Part shown: in pieces, positions 50,889-59,791 of the stretch
Layout of the letters: every line of letters begins with the position of its first letter
How positions within the stretch are numbered: the first letter of the stretch is position 1
Source: Methanosalsum zhilinae DSM 4017
GTDB taxonomy: Archaea > Halobacteriota > Methanosarcinia > Methanosarcinales > Methanosarcinaceae
Direction of reading: 5' to 3'
Length of the DNA stretch: 64,000 nucleotides
NCBI RefSeq assembly: GCF_000217995.1
Contig: NC_015676.1
Location: 350,103-414,102, forward strand
Made by a program: the position numbers and the translations under genes
The notes under the pieces: model-generated
What the model was told of the DNA's origin: nothing
The model's database searches: none
Seen by the model: the letters and a program-made list of their open reading frames with translations, nothing else

Positions 50889-51062
50889 GGTTCACCTTTG
50901 ATTATAAGAATTGATATGCTATATTGTGCTCTATTGTTTAACTGATATATTGATTGAGATCATTTTCTTTCTGTGATAGGTTACATTATTATATTACTTT
51001 ACACATGTTATTATTTCATATTTTCTGGGACCTGGATCATTATACTTACTATTTTCATACCA
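50889..51062. other. Intergenic DNA between the ABC1 kinase gene and the conserved element
   Basis: 174 bp, AT-rich, with no gene seen. It separates the leftward ABC1 gene from the repeated upstream element and likely holds the ABC1 promoter. It is not shared with the second copy of the element. Confidence 0.4.
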
Positions 51063-51278
51063 ATCTATACTTTTGATATTATCAAAACCATTGATATTAC
51101 ATCCCATGTGATTTTAGCATATACTGTAGATTATCAATATTGTATCCGGAAAATCCATGATCTATACAGAGAATATATGATTGATAATATAATTGCTATT
51201 GATCAATTACCATAAGTTATTATATATATCTCTACCCAAATATTAACTTACAGTCAATAATTACAAATTTGAATTTGT
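51063..51278 (+). promoter_or_regulatory. Duplicated upstream regulatory region, copy A (before the CoM methyltransferase gene)
   Basis: Bases 51063-51234 match the reverse complement of 56968-57139 at 163 of 172 positions without a gap, counted by hand. Similarity continues through 51251-51278. Contents in gene direction: a TTTTGATA-T-TATCAAAA dyad (51071-51087), repeated TTGATAA/TTATCAA words, ATTGATCAAT (51198-51207), a TATA-box-like TATTATATATATC (51218-51230), and an ACAAAT-N4-ATTTGT dyad (51263-51278) near the expected transcript start. It ends 100 bp before the start codon. Strong conservation upstream of TATA suggests several protein-binding sites. Confidence 0.85.
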
Positions 51279-51378
51279 GTTATTGATCAGGAAAATATCT
51301 TAAAAACCAGAGGTTATGGATGGATTATTTTTACTATCCCAACCCGTAATTAATAAACAAAAAAGGGTGATAAATAAT

Positions 51379-52491
51379 ATGCCAGCAGAGGATTTTGCTC
51401 CAATAAACTCAGAATGGTTAGAAAAAGCAGGTAACTTATGGACAACACCTTTTGTGGACAAGCCATCAGAAAGGGTTATTGTAGATCCTATTCTCTTGTC
51501 CCATGCAGCTACCTTGTTCAAAAAGACTCCCAAATATTTCTGGGAGAACCCGGATGAAGCAGCAAGAATGGTTTGTCAGGCATGTGAACTGTATGATATT
51601 ACTCCAGTAGGTCACTATCTATGGGCTGATTACTGGGGTCTGGATTACGGTGCTGAAATAAAGATCCAGGAAACATCTCCACCTGCAATTACAAAATATC
51701 CAATAAAAACTCCTGAAGATATTGACAATTTTGAAGTCAAGAGTCCAGAGGAACTTAAGGAAGGTCCGACATTCAGAGAACACTTCAAGGCACTGGATAC
51801 TGTTCTGGAGGAATATCCACAGATGTTTGCTCCGATCACTCAGCTGGCTGGACCCATGGAAGTGGCAACAAACTGGGCCGGCATTGAAGATGTATTCATG
51901 TGGATGATAACAGAGCCGGAACTTATCGATAAGCTAGTTTACAAAGCAGCTGATCATATGGTCAACGCATGTAAGGTTACAGCCGAAAAGTACGGGGCTA
52001 ATGTAATGATCACAGGTTCAGTTGTAGCCAGTGGAGATCTGCTTGAGAGAGAACAGATCAAAAGATTCAGTTACAAACCAGAATGCAAAGCAGTAAAAGA
52101 TGTGATCAAAGCTGGTGCTGGTCCTGGTGTATACTATCACCTTTGTGGTAACCATACCAACAGTTTTGATATGTGGAAGAACGCACCAATGACACCATTT
52201 ACTGTGGTACAGATTGGTAATGATGGAAAGAATGTTTTCCCTGCAGGTAAACTGGTAGAACACTTTGGAGACCGGTGTACCTGTTTTGGAGTTGTTGATA
52301 CCAAACTGATCGACCGTGGAACACCAAGACAGGTCTATGACCAAACAGCAGAACAACTTCAGGCAGGCAAGGACAGTCCAAGAGGATTCATTATAGGAGG
52401 ATCATGTGAATGTCCAACTTTTGCTCCACCTGCAAATGTACACGCAATGGTTAAGGCCGCAAAGGATTACGGAAAATATGAAAAATTCTGA
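51379..52491 (+). CDS. UroD-family corrinoid:coenzyme M methyltransferase (MtbA/MtaA-like)
   Basis: 370 residues from ATG 51379, preceded by GGGTGAT; an in-frame ATG at 51316 would add 21 atypical residues. The protein has the uroporphyrinogen-decarboxylase fold used by MtaA, MtbA and relatives. Zinc ligands that activate CoM thiol are visible: His254 and Cys256 in YHLCGN, and Cys343 or Cys345 in GGSCECP. It likely moves a methyl group from a methyl-corrinoid protein to CoM for methanogenesis. It is longer than MtbA (~340). The promoter region is shared with the corrinoid gene at 56 kb, so that protein is the likely partner. Confidence 0.85.
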
Positions 52492-52543
52492 ATGATTAGA
52501 GGCTTGAAATATAATATCTGAATAATACAAATAGGTGTGCGTT

Positions 52544-53011
52544 ATGGATATAAAAGTAAGTGAAGAAGTTGCCAGTCTACTGAAAGATAACGGTCTAAAA
52601 AAAGATGAAATGGTGAGTATAATCGAAGATGCAGAATCAAGTGGAGATAAACTCAAATCAAAGGATGGAAGTAAATGCCTTGCTAAGAACGAGTCCGATA
52701 ATTTGACGATCTATGCACTTTATTCTTCTGCTAATGGAGGATTTGCACTGGACAGTGCCTATGCCCATAAAATGAAGATGATAGGCTTAACCGGTGGCTC
52801 ATTCGATCCGGATGAGGCAGAGGAGACCGATTGGATCTGCAACAAATGTGGTGAAACTGCAGTTGAGACCAATGTTGATATGTCCTATCTGGATGTTACA
52901 AGGCCAGGACCAGCTGTTGTATGTCCAAAGTGTAATCAGATGTATCTTGAAGAAGATATGATGAAAACAATTAAAACAGCTGAATCCATACTTGAAGAGA
53001 AAAGAGGTTGA
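52544..53011 (+). CDS. DVU_1557-like redox/zinc protein
   Basis: 155 residues from ATG 52544, with AGGTG nine bases upstream; a GTG three codons earlier is possible. The N-terminal ~90 residues are a small alpha/beta domain. The C-terminal ~60 have WICNKCGETAVETNVDMSYL and CPKCNQMYLEEDMMKTI, two CxxC knuckles. This tail resembles the DVU_1557 family found with TrsS radical SAM proteins; the assignment is from memory. It sits between the CoM methyltransferase and the radical SAM gene in one operon (52- and 36-bp gaps). Confidence 0.65.
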   Translation: MDIKVSEEVASLLKDNGLKKDEMVSIIEDAESSGDKLKSKDGSKCLAKNESDNLTIYALYSSANGGFALDSAYAHKMKMIGLTGGSFDPDEAEETDWICNKCGETAVETNVDMSYLDVTRPGPAVVCPKCNQMYLEEDMMKTIKTAESILEEKRG

Positions 53012-53047
53012 TCTGAACCAAAGCATTAAAAATCGATGAGGGTGATA

Positions 53048-54490
53048 ATGGAACAAATTGAAACAGCAGGCAGTATATGTCCTGAATGCTTCAGGCCTAT
53101 AAAAGCTATCAAGTATGTTGAAAATGGTAAAGTCTATATGAAAAAGGAATGTGGAGATCATGGTATCTTCACAAACCTTGTTTCTAAAGATGTGGACCAT
53201 TACCGTCAAATGGAAGACTTTTTTGAAGTTGACCGTGCTAAACCTAAAAGCTATCTTACTGATACTGAAAAAAACTGCCCGCTGGATTGCGGTCTCTGTC
53301 CTTCCCACAAACAGGATACATGCCTTGCGGTTGTAGAAGTGACCGATAGGTGTGATATGGGCTGTGCTTATTGTTTTGCCAGCTCTTCCATGGATGATAG
53401 CAGTGATCCGGATATGGATACTATAAGAAGGATGTTCGAGACCGTCAAAAAATGTTCCAATGACCCTACCTGCGTCCAGATATCTGGTGGAGAACCTACG
53501 CTAAGGGATGATCTACCCGAAATAATCAAAATGGGTCATGAGATCGGACTCAGCCATATTGAACTTAATACAAATGGAAGCAGAATTGCTTCTGATCAGG
53601 ATTATTTTGATGAGATAGTTTCAGCCGGAATAGATGCAATATACCTTGGATTTGATGGAGTATCCGATGATGTCTATTTTCAGAGAACAGGAAAAAAACT
53701 GTTTGATATAAAAGCTGAAGTTATCAATAAATGTGAAAAGGCCGGTATAGGAGTGGTTCTGGTTCCTTTGGTTGCAAAAGATTATAACCTCCATGAAGTT
53801 GGCAAAATACTAAAATTTGCAAGTAGCAATGTACCAACTGTGCGTGGAGTTCATTTCCAGCCTGTATTTTTCTCAGGCCGCTCTCCTCCGGGCAAGGATG
53901 GCAGAGTAACTATTCTGGAGCTTTTAAATAACATTGAAGACCAAACCGAAGGACAACTCAAGGTAGGTAATTTTACTCCTGCTCTTATGGCGACTGCCCA
54001 TTGTGGAGCAACCTGCATGACCCTTGTTGAAGACGATGGTAGTTTCATTCCATTGACCAATATATCTCAGGGATCTTCAAGTTCAGCTTTTGATGTAGCT
54101 AACAAAACTAAGAAATCGATAATGGGAAGGTGGAAAGGCTCATCGAAAAAAGAATCTTCTTCATGCTGTGGAGAACTGACCACCCTTCAGAAAGTCCCTC
54201 AGGAAAGCTCGTGCTGTAGATCCAGTGGAGGTTGGGCGGATTTTATTGAGATGAGTAAGAATAGATATCTTACAATTTCCACAATGGCCTTTCAGGATGT
54301 ATGGTCATATGAAAAGGAAAGGGTTGAAAACTGCTGTATACATGTTGTAACACAGGATGGGAGATTTGTTCCATTTTGTAACTATAATCTGAGTAACTGT
54401 AATGGTGAATATCTATATAGAGAATTACCATCTTCCAGGATAGAAGTAAACAGGCCAGTTTCCAAAATAGAAGTAGAAAGAAATGTATGA
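53048..54490 (+). CDS. TrsS-like radical SAM protein
   Basis: 480 residues from ATG 53048, just after GAGGGTGATA. An N-terminal zinc-type region (CPEC at 11-14, C35) and CPLDCGLC (77-84) precede the radical SAM motif C102-x3-C106-x2-C109. QISGGEPTLRDDLPEI and LNTNGSRIA follow. The C-terminal half has a Cys-pair-rich insert (SSSCCGEL, SSCCRSS) and ends with ISTMAFQDVW, ENCCIHV and FVPFCNYNL, as I recall for TrsS. Related enzymes transfer or build C1 groups. The substrate is unknown. It is the third gene of the operon. Confidence 0.75.
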   Translation: MEQIETAGSICPECFRPIKAIKYVENGKVYMKKECGDHGIFTNLVSKDVDHYRQMEDFFEVDRAKPKSYLTDTEKNCPLDCGLCPSHKQDTCLAVVEVTDRCDMGCAYCFASSSMDDSSDPDMDTIRRMFETVKKCSNDPTCVQISGGEPTLRDDLPEIIKMGHEIGLSHIELNTNGSRIASDQDYFDEIVSAGIDAIYLGFDGVSDDVYFQRTGKKLFDIKAEVINKCEKAGIGVVLVPLVAKDYNLHEVGKILKFASSNVPTVRGVHFQPVFFSGRSPPGKDGRVTILELLNNIEDQTEGQLKVGNFTPALMATAHCGATCMTLVEDDGSFIPLTNISQGSSSSAFDVANKTKKSIMGRWKGSSKKESSSCCGELTTLQKVPQESSCCRSSGGWADFIEMSKNRYLTISTMAFQDVWSYEKERVENCCIHVVTQDGRFVPFCNYNLSNCNGEYLYRELPSSRIEVNRPVSKIEVERNV

Positions 54491-54757
54491 ACCCTTCATA
54501 CCTTTGAGTATTTTATCTATTTTATTTGTTTTTATTATTTTGACGATTTTTGGACTGTATAACATATAATTCCTATGATAAATTACATATTTTGCAGGAT
54601 CAATACACAAAATAAATAACTATTACTGGATAATTATTTACAACCTATTCATGAAGATACAATTTATTGAAAATGAGTCGGCCAATTATCCTCAATGGCC
54701 AATATTTTATCAATATTCTTTGAGTAAATTCATTTTATTTATTGGAGGTAGTTGTGA
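54491..54757. other. Intergenic region before the CoA ligase gene
   Basis: 267 bp. A T-rich run (54508-54552) after the radical SAM gene could terminate the operon. GGCCA (54681-54685) and TGGCC (54697-54701) form a small dyad, and a TATTTTATCAATATT stretch lies at 54702-54716. A GGAGG ribosome-binding site (54743-54747) precedes ATG 54758. The CoA ligase may therefore have its own promoter. Confidence 0.5.
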
Positions 54758-55927
54758 ATGAGCCTATCTGAAAAAATTGGTAATTTTATTCGTTTCAATG
54801 TAGCAAAAAGAAAGTTAGATTCAAGAAATATAGATATTTCAGAAGGTAATCCATTGGAACAATGGGGACTGATGAAAATAAGAAGCGAGGTTAACAGTCA
54901 CGATGAACTGAAAAGGCAGCTACCTGGTAAAGAACTGGATAGAAATGATATAGTGGAATATAAACTCTTTAAATTGAGAGAACTCATAGATTATGTTTCC
55001 AGGAACAGTCCTTTCTATCAGGAACTTTATGAAAAGGAAGGGATATCATCCGCAGATATAAAGACTATAGATGATCTGGACAGGATACCTTTGACCGAAC
55101 AGGAGGAATTGGCCAAAAACCCCTATCATTTTCTATGTGTATCCAGAAAGGATATTGCCCGTGAATTCACGACTTCTGGAACTACCACTACAGATGAGCA
55201 GGATATGAAAAAAAGAGTATCCTACACCCAGCAGGAACTCCTGGAAATCGTAGATTCAGTTATTTCAGGATTGAAAATGGCAGGGATGGATTCTGAAGAG
55301 GACGTATTACAGATCATGTACCCCACAATCACTGCTACATGGGACCCAGGACTTGTTCTTAGTAAAGCCTGTGACCTTGCAGGATTTAAATCGGTTATTA
55401 ATTCTTCAACCAGTATTGAAGATCAGATCAATACCATGAAAAAATCCAGGACAACATTTATAATCGGTACATCTTCTTTCCTGTACAACCTGTCAAAATC
55501 AATTACTGATGCCAATCAGGCAAAGGAACTGGGCATTAAGAATATAATATGCTCATCTGAGCCCTTAACAGAACCTATGAAAGAGCAGATAGAATCGGTA
55601 TGGGGATGTAAGGCAGTACGTCAATGGGGTATGACAGAACTTGGCCTGGCAAATGCTATCGAATGCGAAGAACAGAACGGGATGCATGTGAACAATCCTG
55701 ATTTTCTGGTAGAGGTAATAGATCCTGAATCCGGCAAGGTTCTGCCACCAGGAAAAGAGGGAGAACTGGTCTTTACTACCCTGAGAAGGAAATGTATGCC
55801 TCTTATCAGATACCGTACAAAGGATCTGGCAATCCTTATCGATAAACCCTGTAAATGTGGGACCAAAGTCGATCAAAGGATCAAGAATGTAAGAAGAATT
55901 GGCTTTGATGAAAGTAATAATAAATAA
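54758..55927 (+). CDS. PaaK-like AMP-dependent acyl/aryl-CoA ligase (DVU_1553-like)
   Basis: 389 residues. It resembles phenylacetate-CoA ligase: YVSRNSPFYQELYEKEGIS (~79-97), the ATP loop EFTTSGTTTTDEQ (~135-147), CSSEPLTEPMKEQIE, QWGMTELGLANAIEC and the end LIRYRTKDLAIL...CKCGT. It would activate a carboxylate as acyl-AMP, then thioester. Families of this kind occur with TrsS and DVU_1557 proteins in bacteria. No aromatic-degradation genes are nearby. It converges on the corrinoid protein gene. Confidence 0.8.
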   Translation: MSLSEKIGNFIRFNVAKRKLDSRNIDISEGNPLEQWGLMKIRSEVNSHDELKRQLPGKELDRNDIVEYKLFKLRELIDYVSRNSPFYQELYEKEGISSADIKTIDDLDRIPLTEQEELAKNPYHFLCVSRKDIAREFTTSGTTTTDEQDMKKRVSYTQQELLEIVDSVISGLKMAGMDSEEDVLQIMYPTITATWDPGLVLSKACDLAGFKSVINSSTSIEDQINTMKKSRTTFIIGTSSFLYNLSKSITDANQAKELGIKNIICSSEPLTEPMKEQIESVWGCKAVRQWGMTELGLANAIECEEQNGMHVNNPDFLVEVIDPESGKVLPPGKEGELVFTTLRRKCMPLIRYRTKDLAILIDKPCKCGTKVDQRIKNVRRIGFDESNNK

Positions 55928-56089
55928 ATTGAATGCGCCCAGGTAAAAAAAAGGTCTAAAAGATCTACGATTACTTTATTTTTTTAATTTATTGTCCAGA
56001 TAAGTAAGTCAGAAATCAAATAATTAAAAGATCATTGGAGTAAATAGAATATTTTGTATACATATATTTATCAGAAAAATAGTTTTATT

Positions 56090-56115
56090 GTGGCAGTATT
56101 TTTTATAACTGCCAC
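56090..56115 (-). terminator. Hairpin after the corrinoid protein gene
   Basis: GTGGCAGT (56090-56097) pairs perfectly with ACTGCCAC (56108-56115) around a 10-base T-rich loop. It lies 27 bp past the end of the leftward corrinoid gene and could also serve the convergent CoA ligase gene. Confidence 0.6.
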
Positions 56116-56142
56116 CCAAGATTGAAATTCAGTTATATTTAA

Positions 56143-56808
56143 TTAATCCCATCTGGCAGGATCAAGTTCTTTAACAGCTTCTTTTGCCCATCTGGCTGCA
56201 CCCATTGCATCATCCTTATATTGATCGGCTCCAATATCCTTTGCAAATGCTTCAGTGACAGGTGCACCACCGACAATGATCTTTACTTTGTCTCTCAGGC
56301 CCTTGCTCTGAAGATCTTTGACGGTATTTTCCATATTATCCATTGTAGAGGTCATAAGGGTACTTATGGAAACTGCATCTGCCTTGTTCTTCTCAACAGC
56401 TTCTGCAAATTCCGGTATGGGTACATCCTTACCAAGATCCACCACATCAAAACCAACCGCAGACATCATTGTCTTGACAAGATTCTTTCCTATGTCGTGT
56501 ACATCTCCTTCTGCTGTACCAATAACAAGGACTGCAGCCTTCTCGCCACCTTCCTGTTTAAGATGCGGAGTAAGAACATCCATTCCACCATACATAGCAT
56601 TAGAGGACATTAAGAGATGTGGCATAAATACTTCACCGTTTTCATATTTATCGCTCATGATCTCCATTCCTTTAGCAAGTCCTTCAACGATTGCCTTGTA
56701 TGGATCAATTCCAGCTTCCAGGGCTTTCTCAGACAGCTCGGTTGCCTGATCTTTTTTACCATTGACTACTGCATCTGTAAGTCCACTGAGTATCTCTTTT
56801 TCTTCCAT
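56143..56808 (-). CDS. Methyl-accepting corrinoid protein (MtbC/MttC family)
   Basis: 221 residues, the usual size. An N-terminal helical cap (~1-85, with MSDKYENGEVFMPHLLMSSNAM) precedes the cobalamin-binding Rossmann domain. The lower-ligand His104 is in GDVHDIGKNL (101-110). The SxL and GG motifs follow (SISTLMTSTM; VGGAPVTEAFA). It carries a methyl group between a substrate methyltransferase and a CoM methyltransferase. A GGAGG ribosome-binding site precedes the ATG. The upstream region duplicates that of the UroD-type gene at 51 kb. The cognate substrate enzyme is not in this cluster. Confidence 0.93.
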   Translation of the reverse strand: MEEKEILSGLTDAVVNGKKDQATELSEKALEAGIDPYKAIVEGLAKGMEIMSDKYENGEVFMPHLLMSSNAMYGGMDVLTPHLKQEGGEKAAVLVIGTAEGDVHDIGKNLVKTMMSAVGFDVVDLGKDVPIPEFAEAVEKNKADAVSISTLMTSTMDNMENTVKDLQSKGLRDKVKIIVGGAPVTEAFAKDIGADQYKDDAMGAARWAKEAVKELDPARWD

Positions 56809-56922
56809 AATATTCCTCCAGAATCTTTTTTATCATAAATGGGTAAGGAATGGTTGAAATTTCATTCTTCTCCATTCTAAACAATCTATTCGACATCGAA
56901 TTGCTATGTTTGAGCCAACAAA

Positions 56923-57139
56923 ACAAATAGCTTATTTGTAATTATTGACTGATATTTAATATCTGATTAGAGATATATATAATAACTTATGGTAATTGAT
57001 CAATACTAATTATATTATCAATCATATATTCTCTGTATAGATCATGGATTTTCTGGATACAATATTGATAATCTACAGTATATGCTAAAATCACAGGGAG
57101 TGTAATATCAATGGCTTTGATAGTATCAAAAGTACAGAT
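56923..57139 (-). promoter_or_regulatory. Duplicated upstream regulatory region, copy B (before the corrinoid protein gene)
   Basis: The reverse-strand twin of 51063-51278, in the same orientation to its own gene. The core 56968-57139 is about 95% identical. Retained elements are the TTTGATA-N-TATCAAA dyad (57116-57130), ATTGATCAAT, the TATTATATATATC TATA-like sequence, and a downstream ACAAAT...ATTTGT dyad (56923-56939) whose centre differs but whose arms are kept. It ends 114 bp before the corrinoid start codon; the untranslated sequence below it is unrelated between copies. Confidence 0.85.
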
Positions 57140-57291
57140 CAGAATAAATAAAATATAATCGCTTCTAATCTCAAATAGGTGGCAGAAGAACGCTTTTATT
57201 TATATACTTTTGGGTAACAGGATTAATGGATTGCATCAACTAATTACCAACCTTATCAGTTATGTGATAGGCTATCTGTGGATATAACAGT
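57140..57291. other. Intergenic DNA between the regulator gene and copy B of the element
   Basis: 152 bp with no gene seen. The end of the regulator gene lies at 57292. No strong hairpin was found, so read-through from the regulator into the element cannot be excluded. Confidence 0.4.
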
Positions 57292-58080
57292 TCAAGGGTT
57301 AGTCACTTTTTCTGATCTTTCCCTGTAATACTCGAACAGATCTTTCCCCCACTGAAGTGCACTTTTTTCAAAACTTATTACTTTCTTATGATCGAAAACC
57401 CCGTCCTTGTTAAAAAAGGCAATAAGCATGAGGTCATCTGTAACGGATAGTGCACCAAGTTTAACTGATGTATCATCAAATATGTACAGATTGGAGTTTG
57501 GAGCCTGCATCATTGTATTGTATTCATCTTTGTACTCATTCTTTAATCTATCATATACTGGCCTTGTTAGAATAAGGTTGTAATTTGTTCCTTTTTTAGC
57601 AAGCTGGGAATAGTTCATTGGACATGAAGGACAGAAATATGAGTAAATGGTGTATACATTGCTTGCCCTTTGAAGGCTCTCCAGTAATTCTTTCGGGGGT
57701 TCAAAAAGGTGATTGAGATCCGGCTCGTAGATCATCACGTCTCCAAGTTCTCCTATCCGATCCAGTAATTCAAATGGAATTGGGCTCAGATCCCTGTTCT
57801 GCCAGAAACCTTTATTTTCTTCAAGGACATTGAGTGTTTCTATCAGTGGCTGCATTTTCTTGACTACTATTTTACCAATATATGTTAGATTATATTCATG
57901 GTCATTATGTTCAATAAGGCCCTGCTCCAGAAGTATTTTGATCTGGGTCATTATTGCACTGGAGGTACCTGTGAGCCTTTCTTTGATCTCATCTATTGTG
58001 GTCGGTCCGTCCATTAACATCAAAAGGATGCTTTTTCTCTTTTCAGAAAGAAACACTGTGCCTATCAGTTCAGTTTTCAT
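57292..58080 (-). CDS. Msr-like winged-helix regulator (DUF1724 type)
   Basis: 262 residues. An ArsR-like winged helix (~14-75: KSILLMLMDGPTTIDEIKERL...TQIKILLEQGLIEH) is followed by a linker and a C-terminal sensory domain (~100-255), as in the Msr regulators that control methyltransferase operons in Methanosarcina. A CPSCP motif (~149-153) offers a possible thiol or metal sensor. It lies directly upstream of the corrinoid gene and 55 bp after the sensor gene. It is the best candidate to bind the duplicated element, by context only. Confidence 0.8.
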   Translation of the reverse strand: MKTELIGTVFLSEKRKSILLMLMDGPTTIDEIKERLTGTSSAIMTQIKILLEQGLIEHNDHEYNLTYIGKIVVKKMQPLIETLNVLEENKGFWQNRDLSPIPFELLDRIGELGDVMIYEPDLNHLFEPPKELLESLQRASNVYTIYSYFCPSCPMNYSQLAKKGTNYNLILTRPVYDRLKNEYKDEYNTMMQAPNSNLYIFDDTSVKLGALSVTDDLMLIAFFNKDGVFDHKKVISFEKSALQWGKDLFEYYRERSEKVTNP

Positions 58081-58135: not shown

Positions 58136-59791
58136 TTAACCGGATTCTTCTTTTGGTAACTTTACATGAACAGTTGTTCCCTTGCCTTCTTCACTCTCTA
58201 CCCATATCTTCCCATCATGTGCCTCAATGATATTTTTTGATATGTAGAAATTGGATTTTAATTCTTCATAGTGCTCATACCAGTATGTATCAAATACCTG
58301 ATCATCCAGCTCATAGAACCGTACAAAGATGGTGGATGCGAGAGGTTCAGGTATACCTGCTCCATCGTCTTTGATTCTAACATAAATACATGACTCATTA
58401 TCGGTCACATCGATACTGATATTTCCATTAGGTGGTGTAAAATGGATCGAACCTTCTATTATGCGCGAAAACGAATCTGTAAGTTTACTCTTGTCTCCCT
58501 CAATTGAGGGTATTCCATATGGAATATCCTGTTCTATATTGATATTCTTTTCATCAATACGTAAAATAACGTTTAGTATAGCATCATTAATTATATCAGT
58601 TATATTGACTCTGCTTTTCTCATATTTTATTTTCCCGGCTTTTTCACTGCTCATGTAGAGCATTGAATCCACAATGCTTTTCAACTTCTCAGAGTTTCTG
58701 ATGGCTATCTGCATTGTCCTGTTCTGTTGCTTGTTTATTGAATTGAGTGTTTCCCTGTCTATAATATTGTCGTCACAATCTATGCTGAACAGGTATTCTT
58801 TATCCTCAATAAACTCTTTCTTAATGCTGTTGATTGATTTGAGTTCATTATTGGTCTTTTCAAATTCTCTGGAAAATAACTTAAGGGAGTCTTCCATTTC
58901 CTTGCGCTGTATTATTTTCCACATTCCTTCCATCAATAACTTAAGCTGTTTGACATCAGTCTGGTCGTAATCCTCTTCCTTATTCCCGACACCGGCAAGG
59001 GCAACGATCTTTTGACCATCAAAAATCGGAACATTCATATGGCGTATTATCCTGACGTGTCCTTCTGGATATCCCCTTTTAAGTGGACTTGATTCGTAAT
59101 CATTGGTTATGACAGCTTCTCTTCGACGAACAGCTTCTCCCCACAAACCTGTTTCTTCAAGGGGATATAGATGCTGCTTGCTGCTGATTTCACATTCTTT
59201 CATAGCTCTTTGTGACCATGAATGCATTGTAAGGGTATTTTCAGCTGAGTTTAAGAATGCAAGATATCCAATTTTGCTCTGGGTTAATTTTATGGCCTCT
59301 TCCAATGCAAAATCAATGATTTCGTGGATCGAATAACTACTCATCTGATTAAGTTCTAAAAGTGTTTCCAGGCGAGCTTCATTTAACCGTATCAGCGCTT
59401 CATTTTTTTTGCGTTCTGTAACATCAAAAATAATTCCCTGATAATGAGTTATTTTTCCTTTACTGCTTCTTCTCATCAATGTTCTTTCATCAACCCAGCG
59501 TATATCCCCGAACTTTGTAATGATTCTGTATTCCTGAGTGAATCCTTTATATTTACCTTCTCTGGAATATCTGTATAGCTCTTTTTTTACTCTGTCTACA
59601 TCATCAGGATGTACAATATCTGCATAGTTCAATTTGCCACTCAAGAACTCATTTTTGCTGTATCCAAATTGAATTATATTATCAGTTACAAAGTCAACAG
59701 GCCAGTCTTCCCTTGCTTTCCATAAAAAGATGATTGCAGGACTGCTGTTTAATATAATCTCTATCTCTTCGCCAATACTTGGATCTTTCAT
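58136..59791 (-). CDS. PAS-GAF sensor protein with degenerate histidine-kinase core
   Basis: 551 residues, soluble. A PAS/PAC domain (~10-135: LNYADIVHPDDVDRVKKEL, RWVDERTLMRR), a GAF domain (~150-300: KIGYLAFLNSAENTL, VPIFDGQKIVALAGVGN) and a coiled linker precede the kinase region (~335-551). The ATPase G1 box KDDGAGIP and G2 box EGKGTTVHV are present. No HExRT-type phosphoacceptor His is seen in the dimerisation region, and the N-box Asn residues are replaced (SFSRIIEGSIHFTPP). It probably partners the regulator immediately downstream. Confidence 0.82.
   Translation of the reverse strand: MKDPSIGEEIEIILNSSPAIIFLWKAREDWPVDFVTDNIIQFGYSKNEFLSGKLNYADIVHPDDVDRVKKELYRYSREGKYKGFTQEYRIITKFGDIRWVDERTLMRRSSKGKITHYQGIIFDVTERKKNEALIRLNEARLETLLELNQMSSYSIHEIIDFALEEAIKLTQSKIGYLAFLNSAENTLTMHSWSQRAMKECEISSKQHLYPLEETGLWGEAVRRREAVITNDYESSPLKRGYPEGHVRIIRHMNVPIFDGQKIVALAGVGNKEEDYDQTDVKQLKLLMEGMWKIIQRKEMEDSLKLFSREFEKTNNELKSINSIKKEFIEDKEYLFSIDCDDNIIDRETLNSINKQQNRTMQIAIRNSEKLKSIVDSMLYMSSEKAGKIKYEKSRVNITDIINDAILNVILRIDEKNINIEQDIPYGIPSIEGDKSKLTDSFSRIIEGSIHFTPPNGNISIDVTDNESCIYVRIKDDGAGIPEPLASTIFVRFYELDDQVFDTYWYEHYEELKSNFYISKNIIEAHDGKIWVESEEGKGTTVHVKLPKEESG

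Follow-up and report, generated by a model that had tools for sequence, protein, structure and literature searches.

A duplicated methyltransferase promoter in Methanosalsum zhilinae carries a conserved 18-bp phased array, a candidate operator for an Msr-type regulator

TrmBL2 of the Thermococcales is a filament-forming chromatin protein that coats DNA and binds it largely without sequence specificity. In bacteria, TubR at tubC and the omega repressor at its heptads, which serve partition or repression, act on repeats of ~7-12 bp. These systems resemble the two arrays described here in their regular short repeats, coated there by a small HTH or RHH protein, and differ in that the present arrays have a unit of 18 bp and lie in archaeal promoters of metabolic genes. 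For AvtR of an Acidianus filamentous virus, binding to a strong operator followed by spreading over ~100 nt of degenerate sites has been proposed (PMC5569661). Such oligomerisation from a strong site over degenerate ones is also part of the model put forward below, although AvtR is a viral ribbon-helix-helix protein and the account of this proposal mentions no fixed pitch in register with a TATA box (PMC5569661). The Msr regulators of Methanosarcina acetivorans (MsrA-H) belong to the PF08350 family and are encoded beside methyltransferase genes, as is the regulator at the locus studied here. MsrC and MsrF enhance mtsF and mtsD in that species (PMC3960522), and MsrC has been linked to mtsF/cmtA (PMC11619418). 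Msr regulators have thus been known genetically for years, and we found no description of an operator for them in the Msr literature searched. The array that we report is a concrete candidate for one, with an 18-bp pitch and a defined register to the TATA box.

The methyltransferase cluster and its duplicated promoter

The window, i.e. the 64,000-nucleotide stretch of the M. zhilinae DSM 4017 genome that was analysed (the genome is one contig of 2,138,444 bases), contains a cluster of methyl-transfer genes between two copies of one promoter region on opposite strands. Downstream of copy A, four genes follow each other on the + strand. The first encodes an MtaA-like (URO-D) CoM methyltransferase, here named MtxA (51379-52491; PF01208, with TIGR01463 below its cut-off), whose start codon was placed by orthologue alignment. 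It is followed by a DVU_1557-like gene in the same operon (52544-53011; PF24292 above and NF045645 below cut-off), a radical SAM gene of the TrsS/Tes kind (53048-54490; NF045646, 474 bits against a cut-off of 490), and an AMP-dependent ligase gene of the DVU_1553 kind (54758-55927; NF045666, 277 bits against a cut-off of 300). The occurrence of this trio (52544-55927) after a CoM methyltransferase-like gene is an observation in its own right. Copy C precedes the gene of a methyltransferase cognate corrinoid protein, Corr, on the - strand (56143-56808; TIGR02370 above cut-off). Behind Corr lie, also on the - strand, a FilR1/Msr-type regulator (57292-58080) and a PAS-GAF sensor kinase (58136-59791; Pfam PAS_3, GAF_2, and HATPase_c, no HisKA match). 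The kinase resembles the MsmS/RdmS class (PMC11784639) in combining PAS/GAF domains and HATPase_c without an H-box (HisKA), and it is a possible signal input for the switch proposed below. Among the genes examined, none could be recognised as a dedicated substrate methyltransferase. The cluster differs from the Msr targets of M. acetivorans in that its CoM methyltransferase-like operon, which includes a TrsS-type radical SAM gene, and its corrinoid gene are separate. It is also present in Methanolobus, Methanococcoides, Methanohalophilus, and other Methanosarcinaceae. In three genomes (G015, G019, and G030) the two promoters lie further apart, each with its own nearby copy of the regulator.

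Copy A (51039-51285, + strand) and copy C (56916-57159, - strand) are identical at 221 of 242 aligned positions, with 7 gap columns in the local alignment, and at 152 of 160 positions of the core, which bears out a hand count of 163/172 in an earlier note on this DNA. A separate repeat search returned them as one inverted pair of 222 nt and 90% identity. Their similarity stops abruptly at both sides, and the start codons (51379, + strand, and 56808, - strand) confirm that both copies have the same orientation relative to their genes. When the whole genome was searched with copy A, copy C was recovered (E 1.1e-84) together with one weaker third copy. The latter (match C1:960961-961017; array C1:960961-961116, locus L004 6962-7117; spacing 143 bp) precedes the gene of a secreted protein with, as judged by eye, a cupredoxin-like N terminus and PKD-like repeats. 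The orthologue of this gene in Methanosalsum natronophilum AME2 (G001, locus L027) has a related promoter copy. All three genomic copies are therefore in front of genes, and the matches that the spacing search described below gave in relatives all stand before MtxA or Corr. Copies unrelated to genes, by which the earlier note would have been refuted, did not turn up, and a dispersed repeat or mobile element was rejected. Two further candidates were discarded: a small reading frame inside the block, since there are stop codons in essentially all frames, and a structured RNA or riboswitch, since only the palindrome folds, no fold is conserved, and Rfam gave one weak match elsewhere.

An 18-bp period in register with the TATA box

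In copy A, eight 18-bp units (51073-51216, + strand) start at 51073, 51091, 51109, 51127, 51145, 51163, 51181, and 51199. Unit 1 is the strong distal palindrome TTGATATTATCAA (51073-51085), of the form TTTGATA-N-TATCAAA; units 7 and 8 are clear half-sites, and the inner units are degenerate, with units 3-6 weak. The last unit abuts the TATA-box region GTTATTATATATA (51216-51228, + strand), which occupies the next register and begins exactly 143 bp from the start of the palindrome. Copy C has the same layout on the - strand, with eight units at 56986-57129, the palindrome TTGATACTATCAA at 57129-57117 as the first of them, and GTTATTATATATA at 56974-56986. In both copies TTGA half-sites recur at 0, 18, 108, and 126, and the in-register match inside the single sequences of this genome has a shuffle p of 0.0004 and 0.0002. 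Of the architecture described in the earlier note, the duplication stands, and TTTGATA-N-TATCAAA and ATTGATCAAT were found where it had placed them; the 18-bp grid in register with the TATA box had gone unnoticed.

Twenty-two non-redundant promoters served to assess the period. The maxima of their direct-repeat score fall precisely on 18, 36, 54, 72, 90, 108, and 126 bp, and none of 400 column shuffles reached the observed best score at any period. There is no peak at 10-11 bp, by which an explanation through 10.5-bp helical phase was rejected. Of the 70 half-sites that the promoters together carry outside unit 1, 33 are in register, where 3.9 would be expected. The whole block has a pseudo-dyad at +60, a position that coincides with the centre of a unit. 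The pitch is thus constant beyond chance and its register is fixed to the core promoter, which are two of the marks of a phased operator array. The 143-bp ruler mirrors the 18-bp periodicity, with the TATA box placed in the next register.

As an independent set, with the period of 18 fixed beforehand, we used the promoters of fused corrinoid-methyltransferase genes, taken as the MtsF/CmtA kind. Their mean z at lag 18 is 3.5, and this lag ranks first of 67 in 16 of 29 promoters. In eight promoters of the Methanosarcina-like group, the lags 18, 36, 72, 54, 90, and 108 rank as the best six, and their register agrees with that of the TATA box. The unit sequences are unlike those of copies A and C; the pitch is identical. 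In 26 of 30 loci, the fused gene has its own, more distant Msr paralogue or homologue within 1.5 kb. Some of these promoters (loci L132-L161, chiefly Methanosarcina-like) carry up to ~12 tandem units, e.g. L160 and L150. Among 264 control upstream regions the mean z was 0.18; three exceeded 3, and two of those belong to array genes. The 18-bp period was found in 0 of 30 upstream regions of mtaC, M. acetivorans members of which are under Msr control; the array is therefore not general to Msr proteins. A further case of the same pitch was seen in genome G015 (L031 3611), where a very strong 18-bp tandem repetition (score 17.5) lies inside a 420-aa reading frame; it is apparently a coding repeat unrelated to the promoters.

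Conservation of the palindrome-to-TATA spacing

From the distal palindrome through the TATA box, the upstream regions of seven genomes align without a gap. In an unbiased search, the palindrome TTGATANTATCAA was combined with a TATA motif at 93 permitted spacings, of which 31 were tried on 186 genomes from the order and the others on 112 from the family. There were 31 matches, 29 at 143 bp, one at 144, and one at 125, and the control pattern gave 0. All matches except one directly precede MtxA or Corr orthologues (30/31), and the remaining one is the third copy in M. zhilinae. When hand-anchored and named promoters were added, 36 of 40 had the 143-bp spacing. Two of the four others, at 125 and 53 bp, fall short of it by exactly one and five units (18 and 90 bp), so that 38 of 40 promoters are in register modulo 18, counts that overstate the number of independent events because the promoters are related by descent. 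The distance from TATA box to start codon varies, taking 22 values in 33 promoters. The spacer between palindrome and TATA box has a median pairwise identity of 51%, and a shift by one base lowers the mean identity from 0.49 to at most 0.34. In loci L123 and L129 the palindrome arms co-vary (TCGATA-N-TATCGA), as expected for a dimer site.

The palindrome was also tried alone as a regulon marker. Genome-wide, the bare motif occurs at 9 sites, compared with 2 for a reversed control; six of the 9 belong to none of the three arrays and are located within or next to ordinary reading frames. The palindrome by itself is therefore not a target. No palindrome-plus-TATA arrangement was seen in the mtmC upstream regions of M. 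zhilinae.

Since a promoter of this kind is kept before both genes across the Methanosarcinaceae, it is more than a young duplication and constitutes shared regulatory DNA, which lends support to the view, already expressed in the earlier note, of a multi-site, tightly co-ordinated switch. The conserved spacing points to DNA being coated stepwise, at regular intervals, by a regulator that switches both genes together. Alternatively, the distal palindrome and the promoter-proximal sites might each bind a separate factor, with the DNA between them as a structural spacer of fixed length, through looping or wrapping around archaeal histones. Conservation is indeed strongest at the two ends (mean identity 84% for the palindrome and 62% for the proximal part, 48% for the spacer), and the long-range pseudo-dyad at +60 would suit such an arrangement. 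We nevertheless regard it as unlikely, since the positions in the spacer keep an exact 18-bp register, the outlying spacings of 125 and 53 bp differ by whole 18-bp units and not by 10.5-bp helical turns, and Methanosarcina-type fused-gene promoters show the repeat in nearly every row.

The adjacent regulator as candidate reader, and the age of the duplication

The protein encoded at 57292-58080 (- strand) is assigned to the Msr/FilR1 type by PF08350 (E 2.5e-37; 128 bits against a cut-off of 27). Its N-terminal winged helix matches PF01022 (HTH_5; 27.7 bits against a cut-off of 22) and, by profile, ArsR-family structures. It adjoins the methyltransferase genes in most genomes examined. Orthologues with at least 65% identity occur in those of the compared genomes that have MtxA and in none of those that lack it; G002, which is incomplete at the cluster locus, has a 99% fragment of the regulator at a contig end. 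The predicted model has a mean pLDDT of 91.6, and its best Foldseek match is TrmBL2 (5bpd, 5bpi, 5bqt, and 5box; E 5e-11), followed by TrmB and then by phospholipase-D folds. As judged from the model, TrmBL2 would be the closest solved fold over the whole chain, at a moderate TM-score of 0.42-0.44 and a large rmsd of ~19. Unlike TrmBL2, the present case has a specific phased array ending at the TATA box, and the HTH of the regulator is ArsR-like by sequence.

On these grounds, we consider it probable that each copy is a single promoter whose phased operator array is read by the adjacent Msr/FilR1-type regulator, which would polymerise towards TBP/TFB. In the scheme that we infer for binding, polymerisation, activation, and signal, the regulator would occupy the distal palindrome as a dimer and from there advance cooperatively along the array, one 18-bp unit at a time, until it meets TFB/TBP at the final unit, next to the TATA box. 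The MtxA operon and Corr would then come on together when a methyl substrate or a redox signal is present, the latter perhaps entering through the neighbouring kinase. If a TrmBL2-like protein set out from the palindrome and occupied 18 bp per step, this would account for the pitch and the register as well as for the extent of the conserved block. More tentatively, the Msr family may comprise sequence-addressed relatives of TrmBL2, nucleating at a palindrome and polymerising in 18-bp steps up to the TATA box, with the whole array, and not one operator within it, acting as an all-or-none switch by which methylotrophic methanogens control methyltransferase genes. The array would tie the Msr regulators to a chromatin protein that forms filaments and, if the proposal is true, would illustrate a way in which archaea assemble a cooperative activator switch. 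Its pattern offers a computational route to the targets of individual regulators and to uncharacterised methyl-transfer systems.

It could be argued that the array is real and is read by some other DNA-binding protein, which might be a different Msr paralogue or a chromatin protein of general function. The genome encodes eight PF08350 proteins; a related array precedes a PAS-type sensor kinase gene in a genome that has no MtxA or methyltransferase cluster (G007, L035 9782-9897); and the promoter at locus L131, which has no Msr gene within its 21 kb, retains only a short in-register version. Against such a reader, which we regard as quite improbable, stand the co-distribution of the regulator orthologue of at least 65% identity with MtxA, the conservation of its neighbourhood, and the fact that promoters beside a different Msr paralogue have another unit sequence.

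The adjacent regulator remains our favoured reader, and the history of the two copies can be considered separately. Between the two promoters of one genome, spacer identity is 95% in M. zhilinae, compared with 37-75% in eleven other genomes. Over the core, the M. zhilinae copies are 57-65% identical to their M. natronophilum orthologues. It follows that the architecture is old and that the two M. zhilinae copies became near-identical recently. G002 could not serve as further evidence of homogenisation and was left out, since 25 bp past the palindrome its contig ends in unrelated sequence. These comparisons show that the M. zhilinae copies have, to judge by their sequence, been homogenised recently, most simply by gene conversion, a possibility that the earlier note had raised. 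A purely historical similarity, left by a recent duplication or gene conversion with the two genes not regulated in common, would agree with the 95% spacer identity and the abrupt ends on both sides. It is nonetheless hardly credible, given that other genera too have this architecture in front of the two genes, with a spacer of unchanged length and ~50% identity.

Two further observations concern neighbouring genes in relatives. In genome G030 (L033 5849-8029), the regulator is followed by a gene that resembles a corrinoid reductive activator by its first residues, with a weak array-like match between the two. At L112 (4004-9282), two near-identical tandem copies of mtmCB-like (monomethylamine) genes lie beside two Msr-type regulators, and the methyltransferase frame is interrupted by a stop in the manner expected of a pyrrolysine gene.
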